A stretch of DNA of 36,463 nucleotides from Bacillota bacterium (GTDB lineage: Bacteria; Bacillota; Sulfobacillia; JAUYEG01). Of this stretch, positions 422 to 12,411 are shown piece by piece. Where the stretch lies: NCBI GenBank assembly GCA_030691505.1, contig JAUYEG010000074.1, forward strand, positions 1-36,463, written 5' to 3'. A program made the translations under genes and the position numbers. Within the stretch, counting starts at the first letter, position 1, and each line of letters begins with the position of its first letter. Under the pieces are notes generated by a model. The model did no database searches, was not told the origin of the DNA, and saw nothing but the letters and a program-made list of their open reading frames with translations.

Positions 422-2086
422 GTGTCCAGATCGTGGTCAGCCCGTATGGGCAAGATAGCCTTGACCAGTACTGCGTTTGTCCTGATCCTGACCCTGGTAT
501 CGACCGGATGCACGCCGGCCCCTCCTCCAAAGCCGGTCGAACGCATGCTTCGTGTCACCGCGGCCAACGTGCCGAAGATCGACCCCGCAATCGGGTCGGA
601 CGGCGCCGCGGCCATGGGTCAGCTAAACCTGTACGACACCCTCGTGTTCCCGAATCCGGACGGTTCGGTGCGCCAGCACCTGGCCACAAAGTGGGACGTA
701 TCCGCAGATGGCCTGGTCTGGGAGTTCACACTCCGGCAGGGGGTGAAGTTCCACAACGGCAAGGAACTGACCGCTGAGGATGTTGCATTTAGCATGGATC
801 GGCTCCTCAAGGTCGGCAGGGGCTGGGCTTACCTTTTCAAGGGCCGCGTTAACAAGAGCGAGGCCGTAAGCAAGTACGTTGTCAGGTTTACGCTGACCAA
901 GCCCTTCGGCCCCTTCCTGTCAACCCTTGTCCGGCTGTATGTGATGTCCAAGGATGACGTCATGGCGCACCTTGTGAAGCCGGGTGCCTATGACGATTTC
1001 GGCGACTATGGTACTGCGTGGCTCCAGGCCAACGACGGAGGTTCGGGCCCCTATAAGGTCAAGGAGGTCAAGCAGGGAGAGTACGTGCTGGTGGAGCAAT
1101 TCAAGGACTACTGGAACGGCTTCAAGTCCAACAGCCCTACTAGCCTCAAGATCATCGGCACGACCGAGCCTGTGACGGTTCGTACGCTCATGTCGCGCCG
1201 TGAGCTGGAGATCTCGGATTCGTACCAGTCCATCGAGGCTCTCAAGGCCCTCGGGGAAATCCCCGGGGCAACGGTGGCTTTGCTGCCCGCCGCAACGATG
1301 AACGACCTTATGCTCAATACCAAGAAGCCGCCCACTGACTGCCTCTACTTCCGCAAGGCACTGGCGTATGCGGTTGACTATGCGACGCTTGTGCAGCAGA
1401 TATCGCCCGGCACTCCCGCTCCCATCGGCCTCGTGTCGTCTGCTATCGCGGGGCACAACCCCAACGTGGAACAGCCGACCTACGACCTGGCCAAGGCGAT
1501 GGAGTACCTCAAGAAGTCCAAGTACTACGGCAAGCTCGACAAGTATCCCGTGGAGTTGGCCTGGGTCGCCGAGGTGCCCGACCGTGAGAAGATCGCCCTG
1601 CTCGTGCAGGCTAGCTGCACGCAGCTAGGGATTACGATCAACGTGGTGCGCGTGCCGTGGGTTTCGCTGGTGGATAAGTGCGCGCGCCCGGACACCACGC
1701 CCCATGGTAACATCGTCAGCATGAGCCCGGACTATCCGGAGGCGGGGGCTCACATGTACGCCCGTTGGCACTCCAGCGGAGCCGGGACCTGGCTACAGAT
1801 GGACTGGCTGCAGGATAAGGAGTTTGATGCCGCCATCGAGGACGCCCTCTCCACGATCGACTGGGGGCAGCGTTTGGAGAAGTACAAGCCGCTGCAGGTC
1901 AGGTTGATGGAGATTCAGCCGGCGATCACCCTCATGCAGGGGTTGACCCGCATGGCCTACCAGTCCAACTACGTCGTGTGGCCGGCAGCCGAGGCGGCGA
2001 AAAACAAACAACCGGTCACCGTACTGATGGGCTACTCGATGTACGCACGCGACATCGAGGTCTACCCAGAGAAGATGCCCAAGTAG
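422..2086 (+). CDS. ABC importer substrate-binding lipoprotein (SBP family 5, DppA/OppA type)
   Basis: A 554-residue extracytoplasmic solute-binding protein of the peptide/nickel/opine class. It starts at GTG 422, with GGGAGG (407-412) nine bases upstream; the in-frame ATG 446 has no ribosome-binding site. The N-terminus is a lipoprotein signal: basic residues, a hydrophobic core, then STGC with the lipidation Cys at residue 30. The family hallmark WEFTLRQGVKFHNGKELTAEDV follows in shortened form as VWEFTLRQGVKFHNG with AEDVAFSMDRLL. Length is normal for the family. It should capture the substrate outside the membrane and hand it to the permeases at 2222-4160. Family 5 proteins bind oligopeptides, dipeptides, nickel and various amino-acid derivatives, so the ligand cannot be told from sequence alone. 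Flanking racemase and NicX-like genes favour a small nitrogen compound. Confidence 0.93.
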   Translation: MSRSWSARMGKIALTSTAFVLILTLVSTGCTPAPPPKPVERMLRVTAANVPKIDPAIGSDGAAAMGQLNLYDTLVFPNPDGSVRQHLATKWDVSADGLVWEFTLRQGVKFHNGKELTAEDVAFSMDRLLKVGRGWAYLFKGRVNKSEAVSKYVVRFTLTKPFGPFLSTLVRLYVMSKDDVMAHLVKPGAYDDFGDYGTAWLQANDGGSGPYKVKEVKQGEYVLVEQFKDYWNGFKSNSPTSLKIIGTTEPVTVRTLMSRRELEISDSYQSIEALKALGEIPGATVALLPAATMNDLMLNTKKPPTDCLYFRKALAYAVDYATLVQQISPGTPAPIGLVSSAIAGHNPNVEQPTYDLAKAMEYLKKSKYYGKLDKYPVELAWVAEVPDREKIALLVQASCTQLGITINVVRVPWVSLVDKCARPDTTPHGNIVSMSPDYPEAGAHMYARWHSSGAGTWLQMDWLQDKEFDAAIEDALSTIDWGQRLEKYKPLQVRLMEIQPAITLMQGLTRMAYQSNYVVWPAAEAAKNKQPVTVLMGYSMYARDIEVYPEKMPK

Positions 2087-2120
2087 GGGGGTCCGCCGCT
2101 CTCTCTGAGTCGCGGGGCCT

Positions 2121-2170
2121 GGGGGAAGGCGCCGGCAGGGGCAACTGGACCGATCCGGCGCCCTCCCTCC
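2121..2170 (+). promoter_or_regulatory. GC-rich hairpin between binding protein and permease genes
   Basis: GGCGCCGG (2128-2135) pairs perfectly with CCGGCGCC (2155-2162). The flanking G-rich and CTCCCTCC arms extend the stem past one mismatch; the loop is 19 nt. There is no T-run. A stable stem at this place is typical of an mRNA 3'-end stabiliser or partial attenuator that lets the binding protein be made in excess over the membrane parts. Confidence 0.5.
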
Positions 2171-2221
2171 GGTGCTGTTGGCTCCGGCTTGGAGCGGCCC
2201 TAGCCAAGGGGTGTGTTGTGA

Positions 2222-3229
2222 TTGCTGAGCTATCTGGGAAAGCGGCTGGTTGGAGCAGTATTCGTACTCGCGGGGCTGTCCGTCGTCATCTTCCTTATCG
2301 CCCGTGTGGTCCCGGGAGATCCGGTGCGCATGGCACTTGGCCCCCAGGCGCCGCAAGCCGTTGTCGAGGACTTGAGGAAGCAGCTGCACCTGGATAAGCC
2401 GCTGCACGTGCAGTACTACTACTGGGTTAGCGGTGCGGTCCGCGGGGACTTCGGCATATCTCTGATGACCAATCGCCCGGTCACCGCCGACCTCAAGGAG
2501 TACTTGCCGGCAACTCTTGAACTCGTCCTTTTTGCATCCATTCTCCATGGGCTCTTCGGGTTAATCCTGGGTATCGTGGCGGCGGCGTATAGCGACTCGT
2601 GGCTGGACAACTTCGTCCGGGTTTTCGCCTACATCGGGGTAACCACCCCTGGTTTCGTTTTCGCGGTCCTGTTCATGCTGATCTTCGGGTACTGGTGGCA
2701 CCTCCTGCCGGTCATCGGCCGCATCGGGTACGGCGTGACCGTACCGCCTACCATCACCGGGATGATGACAGTGGACAGCCTTCTGACCGGAAACCTGCCA
2801 GCCTTCGCGGACGCCTTGAAGCACCTGATACTTCCGAGCGTGGCGCTGTCGATGGGGGCGATGTCCCAGGAGGCGCGGATCACCCGTTCGTCAATGGTCG
2901 AGAATCTCAACAAGGACTACATATACATGAGCGTCGCGCAGGGCATCCCCCGGCGGATCATAATGCGCAAGTACCTGCTCAAGCCCTCCTTGATCCCCAC
3001 CGTGACTGTGTTTGGGCTTGGCTGCGCGTCCACCATGGCCGGGGCGTTCCTTGTTGAGTTGATCTTCAACTGGCCGGGGTTCGCGAGATACGGTATCACC
3101 GGCATGCTCATGAAGGACCTCAACGTCATTTCCGCGACCGTACTGGTCGTAGCGCTCTGTTTCGTGGTCGTGAACATCATTGTGGACCTCGTCGTGGCGT
3201 ATCTCGACCCGCGGATCAGGTTGCAGTGA
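2222..3229 (+). CDS. ABC importer permease, DppB/OppB type
   Basis: A 335-residue inner-membrane permease. The start is taken as TTG 2222, ten bases after AAGGGG (2206-2211); GTG 2218 is out of frame. The N-terminus has the family pattern of a first membrane helix followed by VVPGDPVRMALG, with further helices through the length. The EAA-type cytoplasmic loop that docks on the ATPases is near EARITRSSMVENLNKDY, followed by VAQGIPRRIIMRKYLLKPSL. It ends with YLDPRIRLQ, as usual for DppB. It should pair with the permease at 3258-4160 to form the channel. The 135-bp gap from the binding-protein gene holds the hairpin at 2121-2170. Confidence 0.93.
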   Translation: MLSYLGKRLVGAVFVLAGLSVVIFLIARVVPGDPVRMALGPQAPQAVVEDLRKQLHLDKPLHVQYYYWVSGAVRGDFGISLMTNRPVTADLKEYLPATLELVLFASILHGLFGLILGIVAAAYSDSWLDNFVRVFAYIGVTTPGFVFAVLFMLIFGYWWHLLPVIGRIGYGVTVPPTITGMMTVDSLLTGNLPAFADALKHLILPSVALSMGAMSQEARITRSSMVENLNKDYIYMSVAQGIPRRIIMRKYLLKPSLIPTVTVFGLGCASTMAGAFLVELIFNWPGFARYGITGMLMKDLNVISATVLVVALCFVVVNIIVDLVVAYLDPRIRLQ

Positions 3230-3257
3230 GAGCCGCGGAAGCGGGAGGTCTCGTCCA

Positions 3258-4160
3258 GTGACAAGCCCATCCCTCATGGCGCATAAGACAGGGCCCACAG
3301 TCCAGCGCCGCGATGTTCTCCGGCGGGCATGGTACAACTTCTCCCGCAACCGGCTTTCGGTGGTTGGCCTGGTCATCGTCCTCCTGGTGGTCCTCCTCGC
3401 CGTGATTGGCCCGTACATTGCACCCTACCCGGGGCATGCCAAGGCGTTCGTTGACTTCCGCAACTCCAACCAGCGGCCCAGTGTACGCCACTGGTTCGGC
3501 ACAGACTACATCGGGCGTGACATCCTAAGCCGCATACTCTTCGCACTGCGCTCCGCACTGCTGATGGGTGTTCTAGTGTTGGCCATCGCGGTGCCGGTAG
3601 GCGTCGTGTCTGGCGTAGTTGCCGGCTACCTTAGGGGCTCTCTGGCTGAAATGGTCATCATGCGTGTGACCGACATTTTTCTCGCCATTCCGGCAATGGT
3701 CCTGGCTCTGGCCATCGCCTCGGTCCTTGCTCCCAACCTGCGTAACGCGATGCTCGCGGTGACGGTAATGTGGTGGCCGTGGTACACGAGGCTCGTGTAC
3801 GGGCTGGCGTCGTCACTGCGTAATGAGTACTTCGTGCGAGCCGCTGAGTTGACCGGCGCAAGCGCCGGACACATCATGTTCCGCGAGATATTGCCCAACT
3901 GCCTGGCCCCAATCATGACCAAGATAACGCTCGACATGGCCTGGGTCATCATGATCGGCGCTTCCCTGAGCTTCGTCGGTCTTGGCGAGCAGCCGCCCAT
4001 ACCCTCCCTCGGCAACATGGTTTCCGACGGTGCCAAGTATATGCCTGACCAATGGTGGATGACGGTCTTTCCGGCGATAGCGATCATGCTCATCGTCCTG
4101 CCGTTCAACCTGTTGGGAGACGGTATCCGTGATCTCTTCGCCATGGGGGAGGAGCGGTGA
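3258..4160 (+). CDS. ABC importer permease, DppC/OppC type
   Basis: A 300-residue second permease. GTG 3258 is chosen because GGGAGG (3243-3248) lies nine bases before it; an ATG at 3276 has no comparable site. The protein shows a basic N-terminus, the first helix (NRLSVVGLVIVLLVVLLAVI), then HWFGTDYIGRDILSRIL, a DppC hallmark. The EAA loop is seen as RAAELTGASAGHIMFREILPN. The C-terminus has LSFVGLGEQPPIPSLGNM and ends in a final helix with FNLLGDGIRDLF, also typical. The stop codon overlaps the next start in a TGATG arrangement, so the two genes are translationally coupled. Confidence 0.93.
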   Translation: MTSPSLMAHKTGPTVQRRDVLRRAWYNFSRNRLSVVGLVIVLLVVLLAVIGPYIAPYPGHAKAFVDFRNSNQRPSVRHWFGTDYIGRDILSRILFALRSALLMGVLVLAIAVPVGVVSGVVAGYLRGSLAEMVIMRVTDIFLAIPAMVLALAIASVLAPNLRNAMLAVTVMWWPWYTRLVYGLASSLRNEYFVRAAELTGASAGHIMFREILPNCLAPIMTKITLDMAWVIMIGASLSFVGLGEQPPIPSLGNMVSDGAKYMPDQWWMTVFPAIAIMLIVLPFNLLGDGIRDLFAMGEER

Positions 4161-5155
4161 TGGCCACAGCCGAGCCTCTGCTGGATGTCAGGGACCTGCG
4201 GGTCTCCTTCCGGGTGTTCCGTGGCACGCTGAGCGTGTTGGACGGGGTGACGCTCGCAGTCCGCCCGGGCGAGCGGGTTGGGCTAATCGGCGAAACAGGC
4301 TGCGGCAAGACCACCACGCTCCGGGCTATTATGCGCATTCTCCCGCGCGAGGCCAGGGTTGGGGGAGGCCAGGTTCTTTTCGCCGGGCGGGACGTCCTTT
4401 CGATGAACGCAGGAGACCTGTCCGCCTTTCGCCGCAAAGGGGCCTCGTTGGTCTTTCAGGACCCCACGGCGGCGCTGAACCCTGTTTTCACGGTCGGGCA
4501 GCTGTTGGATGAAGTGATCAAGTACTCACAGGGCCGCGCTATGCCTGCTAAAGAACGAAGAGCTGTCGCAGCCGCGGCGCTGAGGGACGTCGCGCTGCCC
4601 GACCCGGCACGGATCCTGAACAGCTATCCGTTCCAACTCAGCGGCGGGATGCGGCAACGGGTTTGCATAGCGATGGCGATCGGTGTGAACCGGGAACTGA
4701 TACTCGCCGATGAGCCCGGCACCTCGCTGGACGTTACCATTCAGGACCAGATCCTGCGGCTCATCAGCGACCTCGTCGCAAAGCGCAACGTGGCGGTGGT
4801 CCTGGTAACGCACTCACTCGGCGTCGTCCGTGAGACCACCGACAGGGTATACGTGATGTACGCCGGCAGCATTGTGGAGAGCGCGCCGGTCAAGGAGCTA
4901 TTCCGGGCGCCGCTGCACCCCTACACAGTGGCCCTTCTGGAGTGCATCCCCAAGCTTAGCGGTGAGCGCATCTCTCAGGGAATCCCAGGTTCCATGCCGG
5001 ACTACCTCCACCCCCCGCGGGGCTGTAGGTATCAGCCGCGTTGCCCAAGGGCCGAGGAAGGCTGCGCTGCCGGGAGGCCCCCAATGAGAGAAGTGGCGCC
5101 CGGACATTCGGTGGCCTGCTACCGGGTAGCCGCTCAGGGCGGTGAAGACAGGTGA
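4160..5155 (+). CDS. ABC importer ATPase, DppD/OppD type
   Basis: A 331-residue nucleotide-binding subunit. ATG 4160 overlaps the previous stop (TGATG) and has GGGGGAGGAG just upstream; a GTG three bases earlier is the alternative. Walker A is GETGCGKT (residues 44-51) in place of the common GESGSGKS. The signature is LSGGMRQRV and Walker B reads LILADEPGTSLDV, with Gly where Thr is usual. The H-loop is VLVTHSLGVV. The C-terminus carries the oligopeptide/dipeptide-transporter extension with CRYQPRCPRAEEGC. It works as a heterodimer with the next gene product to energise uptake. Confidence 0.93.
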   Translation: MATAEPLLDVRDLRVSFRVFRGTLSVLDGVTLAVRPGERVGLIGETGCGKTTTLRAIMRILPREARVGGGQVLFAGRDVLSMNAGDLSAFRRKGASLVFQDPTAALNPVFTVGQLLDEVIKYSQGRAMPAKERRAVAAAALRDVALPDPARILNSYPFQLSGGMRQRVCIAMAIGVNRELILADEPGTSLDVTIQDQILRLISDLVAKRNVAVVLVTHSLGVVRETTDRVYVMYAGSIVESAPVKELFRAPLHPYTVALLECIPKLSGERISQGIPGSMPDYLHPPRGCRYQPRCPRAEEGCAAGRPPMREVAPGHSVACYRVAAQGGEDR

Positions 5156-6123
5156 ATCAGCCAGTGCTGGAGGTGCGCGAACTCAAGAAGCACTTCCCGA
5201 TCCGCAAGAACGTCGCTGTACGAGCCGTCGATGGTGTGAGCTTCGAGCTACGGGAAGGCGAAATCCTCGGACTGGTGGGTGAGTCCGGCTCGGGCAAGAG
5301 CACGGTTGCCTATACCGTGGTCGGAATGTACCGTCCTACGGCCGGACAGGTCATCTTTAGGGGCGAGGACGTCAGCCGAGAGGCTGCGCGGCGCAACTTG
5401 GGTCAAAAGGGACAGATGCAGATCGTCTTTCAGGATCCCGGCTCCTCACTTAACCCGCGCCGCACGGTGCGCCAGATCCTGAGGCTGCCGCTGATGATCC
5501 ACGGGCTGGCCAAGACAGAGAGTGAGAAGGAGGAGAAGGCGGTGGATCTTCTCCGGCGGGTCGAGTTGCCGGAGGAGTACCTTGACAAGTACCCCTCCGG
5601 GATGGGCGGGGGGGAGAGGCAGCTTGTAGCCATCGCCAGAGCCCTGGCCACTTCCCCTTCGCTCATCATCTTCGATGAGCCGACCTCCGCGCTCGACGTC
5701 TCGGTGCAGGCCAAGGTGATCAACCGCCTCGTCGAGCTTCATCGCCGCCTCAACCTGTCCTATCTTTTCATTACCCATGACCTCAGCCTGATGCGTAACG
5801 TATCCTCACGGGTCGCGATCATGTACCTTGGGGTCATCTGCGAGGTGGCCGAGACCAAAGCGTTCTTCACAGCCCCACGCCACCCTTATACGCACATGCT
5901 TCTCTCCTCGATCCCCGTCGTATCCGATCTTGAGGAGGAGCTCAAGCCGCGCAAGGTGCCGTCTGTGGGGGAGATCCCCAGTCCCGTGAACATCCCTCGC
6001 GGATGCCGGTTTCATCCGAGGTGTCCGGAGGCGGTGCAGCAGTGCCGGGAGGCCGAGCCCCAACTCCGCCCGGTGGCCGGCGGAACGCATCTCGTCGCCT
6101 GCCACAGGGCCCTGCCTGACTGA
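5152..6123 (+). CDS. ABC importer ATPase, DppF/OppF type
   Basis: A 323-residue second ATPase. GTG 5152 overlaps the preceding stop (GTGA), so translation is coupled. Walker A is GESGSGKS (residues 43-50). Walker B is LIIFDEPTSALDVS, the H-loop LFITHDLSLM, and the C-terminal cysteine-containing extension CRFHPRCPEAVQQC is present. The ABC signature is odd: SGMGGGERQLVAIARAL in place of the usual LSGGQRQRVAIARAL, so the Leu-Ser start of the motif is altered. With the preceding genes it completes a five-gene importer. The next gene starts 62 bases downstream on the same strand and may share the transcript. Confidence 0.93.
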   Translation: MNQPVLEVRELKKHFPIRKNVAVRAVDGVSFELREGEILGLVGESGSGKSTVAYTVVGMYRPTAGQVIFRGEDVSREAARRNLGQKGQMQIVFQDPGSSLNPRRTVRQILRLPLMIHGLAKTESEKEEKAVDLLRRVELPEEYLDKYPSGMGGGERQLVAIARALATSPSLIIFDEPTSALDVSVQAKVINRLVELHRRLNLSYLFITHDLSLMRNVSSRVAIMYLGVICEVAETKAFFTAPRHPYTHMLLSSIPVVSDLEEELKPRKVPSVGEIPSPVNIPRGCRFHPRCPEAVQQCREAEPQLRPVAGGTHLVACHRALPD

Positions 6124-10003: not shown

Positions 10004-10084
10004 TGCAAGTGGTGCTGAGCCGGGCCCAAGCCCGCGAGGATGATGGCGGCCTCCCCTGGAAATGACCACAGTGAGGTGACCGCC

Positions 10085-10774
10085 ATGCCCGACCTACCGT
10101 CCTGCGCCGCAGGCGTGCCGATCTTCCAGGTCTTGCCGCAGGACGCGCTGCGGGAGCTGACGGCCGCCCTGCGCCACGCCCGGTTTGGCGAGGGGGAGAC
10201 GATCGCCGCCGACGGCGCCCCGGTCGAGTACCTCGTCGTCGTCGCCCACGGCCGCGCAAAGCTGGTCCACACCAGCGCCGCAGGACGGGAGCAGGTCGTG
10301 CGAGTACTGGGACCCGGCGAGTTCTGGGGCGAGATGGCCCTGTTCGCTCCTGCCCGCCAGGAGGGCGACCTCATCGCGCTCGAGGAAACCATGGCCTGCC
10401 TCGTGCCGCGCCATGCCGTCCAATCGTTGATGCAGCGCTACCCGGACGTCGCCGTCCGTCTGGTCGAGTCGCTGGCCCAGCGGCTGGCGGCATCAGAACA
10501 GCTCATCGCCGACCTGGGCTTGCGTGACGTCGGCCAGCGGCTCGCCGCCGAGCTGTGCAGGCTGGCGGAAACGGGCACGGCCAGAATGCGCGGGGTGGCC
10601 GTGCGTGTTCCGATGCCATGGGCGCAGTTGGCCATGAAGCTCGGCACGACCCCGGAGAGCCTCAGCCGCAAGCTCAAGGCCCTGGCAGGGCAGGGGCTCA
10701 TCCAGCATCGCGGGGGCAGCCGCGAGGTAGTCGTACTGGATCTGGAGCGGCTGCTGAGGTTGGCGGGGAAATAG
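10085..10774 (+). CDS. Crp/Fnr-family transcription regulator
   Basis: A 229-residue regulator. ATG 10085 is preceded by GTGAGGTG; an upstream in-frame ATG at 10040 has a poorer site. Residues about 14-125 are a cyclic-nucleotide-binding-like beta-barrel (VPIFQVLPQDALREL, VVRVLGPGEFWGEMALF). Then come a dimer helix (LVESLAQRLAASEQL) and a Crp-type helix-turn-helix, WAQLAMKLGTTPESLSRKLKAL. The recognition helix has Glu191-x-x-Ser194-Arg195, the E..SR arrangement that in FNR reads TTGAT half-sites. The N-terminus has only one Cys (Cys7), so an FNR-like [4Fe-4S] cluster is unlikely; a haem, NO or redox ligand is possible. Matching operators are at 9988-10003 and 19684-19699. Confidence 0.93.
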   Translation: MPDLPSCAAGVPIFQVLPQDALRELTAALRHARFGEGETIAADGAPVEYLVVVAHGRAKLVHTSAAGREQVVRVLGPGEFWGEMALFAPARQEGDLIALEETMACLVPRHAVQSLMQRYPDVAVRLVESLAQRLAASEQLIADLGLRDVGQRLAAELCRLAETGTARMRGVAVRVPMPWAQLAMKLGTTPESLSRKLKALAGQGLIQHRGGSREVVVLDLERLLRLAGK

Positions 10775-10841: not shown

Positions 10842-10870
10842 TTACGTTTCCGCCCGACATCGTGTATCAT
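10842..10870 (+). promoter_or_regulatory. Candidate promoter of the riboswitch-CDF transcript
   Basis: TATCAT (10865-10870) is a fair -10, and TTACGT (10842-10847) sits 17 bases upstream as a poor -35. Initiation about seven bases later would start the RNA at the 5' side of the riboswitch P1 stem, which is the main reason to propose it. Confidence 0.3.
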
Positions 10871-10950
10871 GACGGCAGGAGCAGGCGATCGGCGGCAGAC
10901 AGCCGCTGGTGGGGCCGGGCGCGAGCGCAGCAGGTAACCCTGTGGGACCT
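10871..10950 (+). ncRNA. NiCo (czcD-type) riboswitch aptamer
   Basis: Conserved blocks of the NiCo four-way junction appear in order. GAGCAGGC is at 10879-10886. P2 is CGGCGGC/GCCGCTG with a short loop. GCCGGGC (10914-10920) leads into a small GCG/CGC hairpin. P4 is CAGG-TAAC-CCTG, and the last block is CTGTGGGAC (10940-10948). These match the layout of the structurally solved NiCo aptamer as I recall it. The outer P1 stem is weak here (about five pairs with a bulge). The aptamer precedes a CDF exporter gene and an intrinsic terminator, the usual arrangement: Co2+ or Ni2+ binding should hold P4 and allow read-through. Confidence 0.83.
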
Positions 10951-10982
10951 TCGAGTTGGGGGTCGCCACAGGTTTTTGTTTT
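10939..10982 (+). terminator. Intrinsic terminator of the NiCo riboswitch
   Basis: CCTGTGG-GACC (10939-10949) pairs with GGTC and CCACAGG (10961-10972), followed by TTTTTGTTTT. The left arm uses the 3' strand of P4 and the conserved TGTGGGAC block of the aptamer, so terminator and metal-bound junction exclude each other. Confidence 0.88.
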
Positions 10983-11041
10983 CACCGGCCGGTGTGCGGC
11001 CTATCTTACGCCGCAACGCGGCGCGATAGGGGAGATCGGTG

Positions 11042-12046
11042 ATGAGAAGCGTGACCGATGTCGTCTTGCGGGCTTTCGTCCGCGAGCCGATCGACGCTGA
11101 CAACCAGGCAACTCGTGCCACGATCGGTGCCCTGGAGGCCTGGGTGAGCATCGTCAGCAACATCCTGCTGGCTGCCGCGAAACTGGGTTTGGGGATATCG
11201 CTCAACAGCATATCGCTTCTCGCCGATGCCGTGCACACGGCTTCCGATGTCGTCACTTCGGGGATCGTGCTGGTCGGATTCCGGGCCGCGCGGGCGCCGG
11301 CCGACGAGGAGCATCCCTACGGTCACGGGCGGGTTGAAACCATTGCCACGCTGGTCATCGCTGTGGTGCTGATCGTCGTGGGCTTCGAGTTTGCCAACAC
11401 ATCAACAAGAAGGCTCTTCACCGCCGAGGTGGTCGGAGGCAGCTACGCCGCGGCAATCGCGCTCGCCGCCAGCGGCCTTTTCAAAGAGTGGCTGGCCAGG
11501 TTCTCGGAAGACCTCGGCAGGCGGATCGATTCTTCGACCCTGATCGCCGACGCCTGGCACCACCGGAGCGATGCCATAGCGAGCGTACTCGTCGCGGTGG
11601 CAATCGTGGCCTCGCGTTTCGGGTACCCGCGGGTTGACGCCGTCTTCGGGATTCTGGTTTCGGCCCTGATTATCTACACCGGCTGGGCGCTGGGCAAGGA
11701 CGCCTCCAGCGTGCTCATCGGGCGGCAGGCGGACGCGGCCCTGCTGGAACGGATAACGGGCCTGGCAAAAAGCATTCCCGGTGTGCACGACGTGCACCGG
11801 CTGAGCATGCACGACTACGGCGGCGGCCGGACGCTCGTTTCCCTGCACATCCGGGTCGACGAGCGGCTGCGGGTCCGCGAGTCGCACGGCATCGCCGAAA
11901 AGGTCGAGGCCCTGCTGCGCGACGGGCTTGGGCTTCAGGCCACGGTCCACATCGAGCCGCGGGCCGCGGGCAGGGAGGAGGCCGGGGGTTTCGGGGTCGG
12001 GGCTTCCCTCAACGGCACCGGCCAGGCCTCCGGCCTGGGAGCCTAG
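11042..12046 (+). CDS. Cation diffusion facilitator (CDF) metal exporter, probably Co/Ni-responsive
   Basis: A 334-residue inner-membrane antiporter. ATG 11042 is preceded by GGGGAG; an adjacent GTG at 11039 is an alternative. CDF signatures are clear: LLADAVHTASDV in helix 2 and ADAWHHRSDA in helix 5, giving two paired metal sites of D-A-x-H-x-x-x-D form (His65/Asp69 in the first). HPYGHGRVE follows helix 2. After about six helices the cytoplasmic domain begins near LLERITGLAKSIPGVHDVH, with HDYGGGRTLVSLHIRVD. The last 30 residues are Gly/Ala-rich and unlike the family core. CDF proteins export Zn, Fe, Mn, Co or Ni in exchange for protons. The NiCo riboswitch directly upstream makes Co2+/Ni2+ the most likely inducers. 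Confidence 0.93.
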   Translation: MRSVTDVVLRAFVREPIDADNQATRATIGALEAWVSIVSNILLAAAKLGLGISLNSISLLADAVHTASDVVTSGIVLVGFRAARAPADEEHPYGHGRVETIATLVIAVVLIVVGFEFANTSTRRLFTAEVVGGSYAAAIALAASGLFKEWLARFSEDLGRRIDSSTLIADAWHHRSDAIASVLVAVAIVASRFGYPRVDAVFGILVSALIIYTGWALGKDASSVLIGRQADAALLERITGLAKSIPGVHDVHRLSMHDYGGGRTLVSLHIRVDERLRVRESHGIAEKVEALLRDGLGLQATVHIEPRAAGREEAGGFGVGASLNGTGQASGLGA

Positions 12047-12108: not shown

Positions 12109-12411
12109 TCGCCGCGCAATAGGGTTCGTTGTGGCATTCCTGGCGCGGGAGTTTGGCGTGCAGGTGTGGGCGGTCGATCCAAGAGTGCCGGCGAGCGACA
12201 ACTGGAAGCGTGTCTGCGAGGCCGGAGTGCAGGAGCTTGTTTTCCCCATCCAGGCCGAGGCGCGCTTGGCATCGTCAACCCCGGCATGAAGCGCGAGCTC
12301 GATCGGGACATCCCGCAGCACCCCAAGGACAACTGGCATCCCAACTCGGACGCCTATCACTCCGTCGCGTGGTGGCGCAGGCACTGGGAGAAGAGCGGAC
12401 TGGCAGGCAGA
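12109..12411 (+). pseudogene. SAM-dependent methyltransferase, internally deleted pseudogene
   Basis: The first piece reads FVVAFLAREFGVQVWAVDP, then SDNWKRVCEAGVQELVFPIQAEA, which is the central Rossmann part of a class I methyltransferase family. It then jumps, in another frame, to GIVNPGMKRELDRDIP, followed by NWHPNSDAYHSVAWWRRHWEKSG, which belongs near the C-terminus of the same family. The N-terminal glycine-rich SAM loop and about 50 internal residues are missing. There is no credible start codon with a ribosome-binding site. It is therefore a dead remnant lying between the CDF gene and the convergent M24 peptidase. Confidence 0.7.

Follow-up and report, generated by a model that had tools for sequence, protein, structure and literature searches.

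The window, a 36,463-nt stretch of DNA from a Bacillota bacterium (contig JAUYEG010000074.1), carries an ordinary member of the known NiCo (czcD) riboswitch family, and this RNA very probably acts as a standard metal-ON transcription-termination switch for one CDF exporter gene, at 11042-12046. Covariance-model, structural and comparative evidence supports the identity of the NiCo aptamer, its overlapping terminator and its CDF target. All features of the window described below for the switch and its target gene lie on the + strand.

A NiCo aptamer upstream of the CDF gene

The whole window was scanned with Rfam cmscan against all 4227 Rfam families, and the sole family matched anywhere was NiCo (RF02683), at 10867-10952 (+), with 37.8 bits (E 3.9e-05); the gathering cut-off is 37 bits, so that it is exceeded by just 0.8 bits. 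Because this score was marginal, we made a second, independent covariance model (R1) out of 19 NiCo RNAs from relatives, leaving the window out. Although the window is barely over the Rfam cut-off, it scored well with this model from related genomes, at 60.9 bits (E 1.1e-13). The residues that are invariant across the 19 relatives, the J2/3 and J4/1 guanines included, are all found in the window, and a search of the 2.88 Mb genome returned one RF02683 copy, the window's own. The initial annotation had recognized blocks in the order of the NiCo four-way junction; these are all in place, with GAGCAGGC at 10879-10886, GCCGGGC at 10914-10920 and CTGTGGGAC at 10940-10948, and the RF02683 and R1 matches agree with them. 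The window thus has the conserved blocks of the NiCo/czcD family (CAGGC, GCCGGGC, GCAGC and GGGAC), the four-way junction seen in the riboswitch from an Erysipelotrichaceae bacterium (RF02683; PDB 4RUM), a terminator overlapping P4 and P1, and a CDF gene downstream, with minor differences in its 3-bp P3 and 4-nt P4 loop.

The aptamer fold was examined by folding and with model R1. The 5′ strand of P1 (AGG plus C10882, within 10877-10882) pairs with 10946-10950 through A10877-U10950, G10878-C10949, G10879-C10948 and C10882-G10946, and this stem covaries in relatives. P2 (10884-10916) is composed of GGC/GCC and a AUCGGCGGC/GCCGCUGGU hairpin, giving the window a long outer stem, and all five of the outer P2 pairs (5/5) show two-sided changes in relatives. 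P3 (10919-10928) is a 3-bp hairpin, GCG-CGAG-CGC, and P4 (10930-10943) is the hairpin GCAGG-UAAC-CCUGU, whose cells in relatives are all paired. Across 21 aligned matches, standard pairs occupy 96.8% of pair cells and two-sided changes occur at 12 of 20 pairs, counts that lean towards structure because the alignment was fitted to the model; when the pairing was slid one column either way, only 38-44% standard pairs were obtained. Covariation therefore backs a fold in which four helices, P1-P4, surround one junction. The weak P1 had previously been called atypical, a view that we dropped, since the same short stem of 2-4 bp is common to the relatives and 94% of P1 cells are paired. In thermodynamic folding the isolated, metal-free aptamer preferred another fold by a few kcal/mol; such an alternative fits a junction that is stabilized by metal, as would be expected, but is not proof of it.

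Could the match have arisen by chance, from GC-rich hairpins and an ordinary terminator before a CDF gene, with no aptamer present? The Rfam score near the cut-off would suit such a reading, but it is exceedingly improbable: the leave-out model gives 60.9 bits, the match is the single one in about 2.9 Mb, and the window has the invariant residues within a covarying structure that is common to the relatives. A chance match was ruled out on the leave-out model and the covariation.

Two sets of junction guanines are candidates for contact with the ligand. In the Eba structure, metal-binding roles have been described for the region of G46/G47 (PMC7689651), and the J2/3 guanines at 10917-10918, which are conserved in relatives, are putative metal-binding residues as likely counterparts of that region. 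Similarly, the J4/1 guanines, which together with the start of the P1 3′ strand make up GGGAC (10944-10948), a segment that is also within the terminator stem, would be metal ligands after the example of G87/G88 in the solved Eba riboswitch (PMC7689651).

The terminator and the aptamer are mutually exclusive

Folding of the downstream sequence revealed an intrinsic terminator at 10939-10982. It consists of a hairpin at 10939-10972 (CCTGTGGGACC...GGTCGCCACAGG) of 13-14 bp and -22.4 kcal/mol followed by TTTTTGTTTT, the U-run at 10973-10982; when the downstream 30 nt were dinucleotide-shuffled 2000 times, this energy was never reached. Folding and the overlap found in relatives bear out the earlier proposal of a CCTGTGG/CCACAGG terminator with a T-run that reuses P4 bases (CCTGTGG at 10939-10945, CCACAGG at 10966-10972 and the T-run at 10973-10982). 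A simple terminator pattern scan found no terminator at the window locus, probably because the stem has a bulged G; absence of a terminator was ruled out, the hairpin being clear on folding. The 5′ arm of the terminator combines the 3′ strands of P4 and P1 and the GGGAC junction, in which the two J4/1 guanines lie; therefore, the aptamer and the terminator are mutually exclusive. The overlap is present at all 30 loci examined (the window's own included): at 28 the terminator begins no later than the P4 3′ strand, and at the other two it begins inside GGGAC. These two, L016 and L018, have a different, weaker terminator that leaves P4 unused.

A probable -10 box, TATCAT, with a poor -35 can be read at 10865-10870, and transcription would be expected to start around 10876-10878, the base of P1. 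Such a start is probably the reason why P1 has only 2-4 bp. Hexamers resembling a -10 box are concentrated, in relatives, 10-14 nt ahead of the conserved C of CAGGC, with 14 in a 5-offset window compared with a mean of 5.3 and a maximum of 10 in 500 shuffles. No sigma-70 promoter passed a generic promoter scan at the window locus. Based on the hexamers, we infer a promoter upstream of the NiCo aptamer. The unpaired 5′ end of the RF02683 model, positions 1-9 (window 10867-10875), is the site of the -10 box in many relatives, and the conservation of these positions may reflect in part promoter DNA rather than RNA.

The regulated gene and its neighbourhood

The gene behind the terminator, at 11042-12046, is predicted to encode a CDF metal-cation exporter. 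It starts at ATG 11042 after GGGGAG at 11029-11034, with GTG 11039 as a possible start. The product matches PF01545 (Cation_efflux; 153.6 bits, E 7.5e-45), PF16916 and the CDF superfamily model TIGR01297 (223.4 bits, cut-off 82.35), and it contains DAVHTASD and DAWHHRSD, in agreement with the initial annotation of the next gene as a CDF exporter with two D-A-x-H-x-x-x-D sites. Like MamM, MamB and FieF (PF01545), it is a full-length CDF protein with the dimerisation domain. Alignment to YiiP gives a transport site of the HD-HD type, with an H and a D in each of TM2 and TM5, at positions that we take to correspond to D45/D49 and H153/D157 of YiiP; in contrast, the TM2/TM5 site of FieF/YiiP is DD-HD.

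A Crp/Fnr-type regulator gene (10040-10774) lies upstream of the CDF gene and a convergent M24 peptidase gene lies downstream, and the CDF gene appears to stand alone. A second CDF match elsewhere in the genome is weaker and has no riboswitch. Just before the start codon, at 11000-11034, there is a hairpin, CCTATC-GCCGC/GCGGC-GATAGG, that extends over the edge of the ribosome-binding site GGGGAG; it was not evident in relatives. A short reading frame at 12129-12300 resembles by eye the N-terminal part of a methyltransferase; it had no match in Pfam or NCBIfam, and may be a gene remnant. Further away, positions 422-6120 hold an ABC importer operon of the Opp/Dpp/Nik type, complete with a binding protein, two permeases and two ATPases; nickel and dipeptide types are among the models that score best for it, none of them reaching its cut-off. 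The gene that follows this operon is an Asp/Glu racemase, and a peptide or amino-acid substrate is therefore favoured for the importer.

Distribution in relatives and compact forms

Across the 30 loci, the gene behind the NiCo RNA is a CDF gene wherever it can be read (seven were checked by HMM); it is not fully readable at L014, which runs off the contig, and at L011, which is cut. Among the 80 closest CDF homologues in the genome_contigs collection, R1 detected a NiCo RNA at 12 of the first 14 (L019-L032), and the other 66 (L033-L098) had no NiCo match with Rfam or R1. The CDF homologues suggest that the window comes from a lineage of high-GC Bacillota close to the Clostridia. At L022, no NiCo RNA was found by R1. 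The leader of L030, just upstream of position 3001, keeps CAGGC, GCAGCAAG, CTGCGGGAT and a terminator, with the GCCGGGC block missing, and by eye resembles a NiCo RNA that has decayed or been altered. Four of the 12 RNAs found by R1 reach the Rfam cut-off (L021, L029, L031 and, in a more permissive search, L023). Since L021, L029 and L031 went into the building of R1, only the remaining nine count as independent finds, and several of these are compact forms with a P2 of about 3 bp.

Seven such compact NiCo RNAs (L020:2845-2911, L024:870-936, L025:2851-2916, L026:2856-2925, L027:2794-2858, L028:2793-2856 and L032:2779-2843) were identified, in Syntrophomonadaceae and Tepidanaerobacteraceae. They are 64-70 nt long, have P2 as a tiny hairpin and an overlapping terminator, and lie upstream of CDF genes. 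Their R1 scores are 25-41 bits and their Rfam scores at best 28 bits, under the cut-off.

Proposed mechanism and the identity of the metal

These observations can be arranged into a model of control. RNA polymerase would start beside P1 and transcribe the aptamer before anything else. When free metal is scarce, the terminator hairpin at 10939-10972 would form by drawing in the 3′ strands of P4 and P1 and the GGGAC junction, and transcription would stop at the U-run. Cooperative binding of divalent transition-metal ions to the guanines of the junction would hold the four-way arrangement with P1 and P4; the terminator would be blocked, the CDF exporter would be transcribed and the metal would be lowered. 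Metal binding, the direction of control and export are proposed here by analogy with the NiCo family, for which it has been described that with bound metal the aptamer blocks the overlapping terminator (PMC7917058, PMC7689651); the overlap and the CDF target in relatives are consistent with this published ON mechanism.

The initial annotation had further held that the riboswitch assigns likely metals, Ni and Co, to the transporter. This does not stand as given, since in the literature the ligand of the NiCo class is disputed or taken to be Fe(II) (PMC7689651, PMC9294342, PMC11477304) and the CDF protein is far from DmeF. With the same switch, there is about an even chance that Fe(II) is the physiological ligand and the CDF protein an iron exporter, in which case the Ni/Co label would be misleading. 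According to reviews, RNAs of the class respond to Fe(II) in vitro, and Fe(II) and Mn(II) are the only metals whose cellular availability suits the affinities (PMC7689651); NiCo is entered as an Fe2+ riboswitch in a review from 2024 (PMC11477304). The window protein scores 158 bits with MamM, 156 with MamB and 125 with FieF, versus 53 bits (52.9, cut-off 250) with the DmeF Co(II)/Ni(II) exporter equivalog NF033827. Furthermore, among the NiCo-associated CDF proteins of seven relatives the top-scoring named subfamily was never DmeF, being MamB, MamM or MntE in six and the zinc exporter Cdf31 in one. These scores lean away from a dedicated Co/Ni exporter and prove nothing: the window protein lies below every subfamily cut-off (MamM, MamB and FieF), all the scores are far below the equivalog cut-offs, and the metal is therefore not fixed by them. 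An HD-HD transport site also speaks against iron, as this pattern generally goes with Zn or Co/Ni and not with Fe.

That site is compatible with the original description of the class, summarized in PMC7689651 and PMC7917058, by which the same switch would sense Co(II)/Ni(II) and the CDF protein would export Co/Ni. We regard this as a real but somewhat less than even prospect, given that the protein is far from DmeF and that the reported affinities seem too weak for cellular Co/Ni (PMC7689651). The probable candidates for the physiological metal are Fe(II) and Co(II)/Ni(II), with Fe(II) slightly ahead.

This locus bears on the metal that the NiCo class senses in cells, a matter beyond sequence alone. 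We speculate, tentatively and at rather less than an even chance, that the riboswitch and the CDF gene form an Fe(II)-relief system, and that the clade of CDF proteins found almost always with the switch would then be iron exporters with an HD-HD site. Because R1 finds compact members that the Rfam cut-off misses, the NiCo class is somewhat under-counted. The window adds one more well-supported NiCo example and ties this CDF clade to the class.
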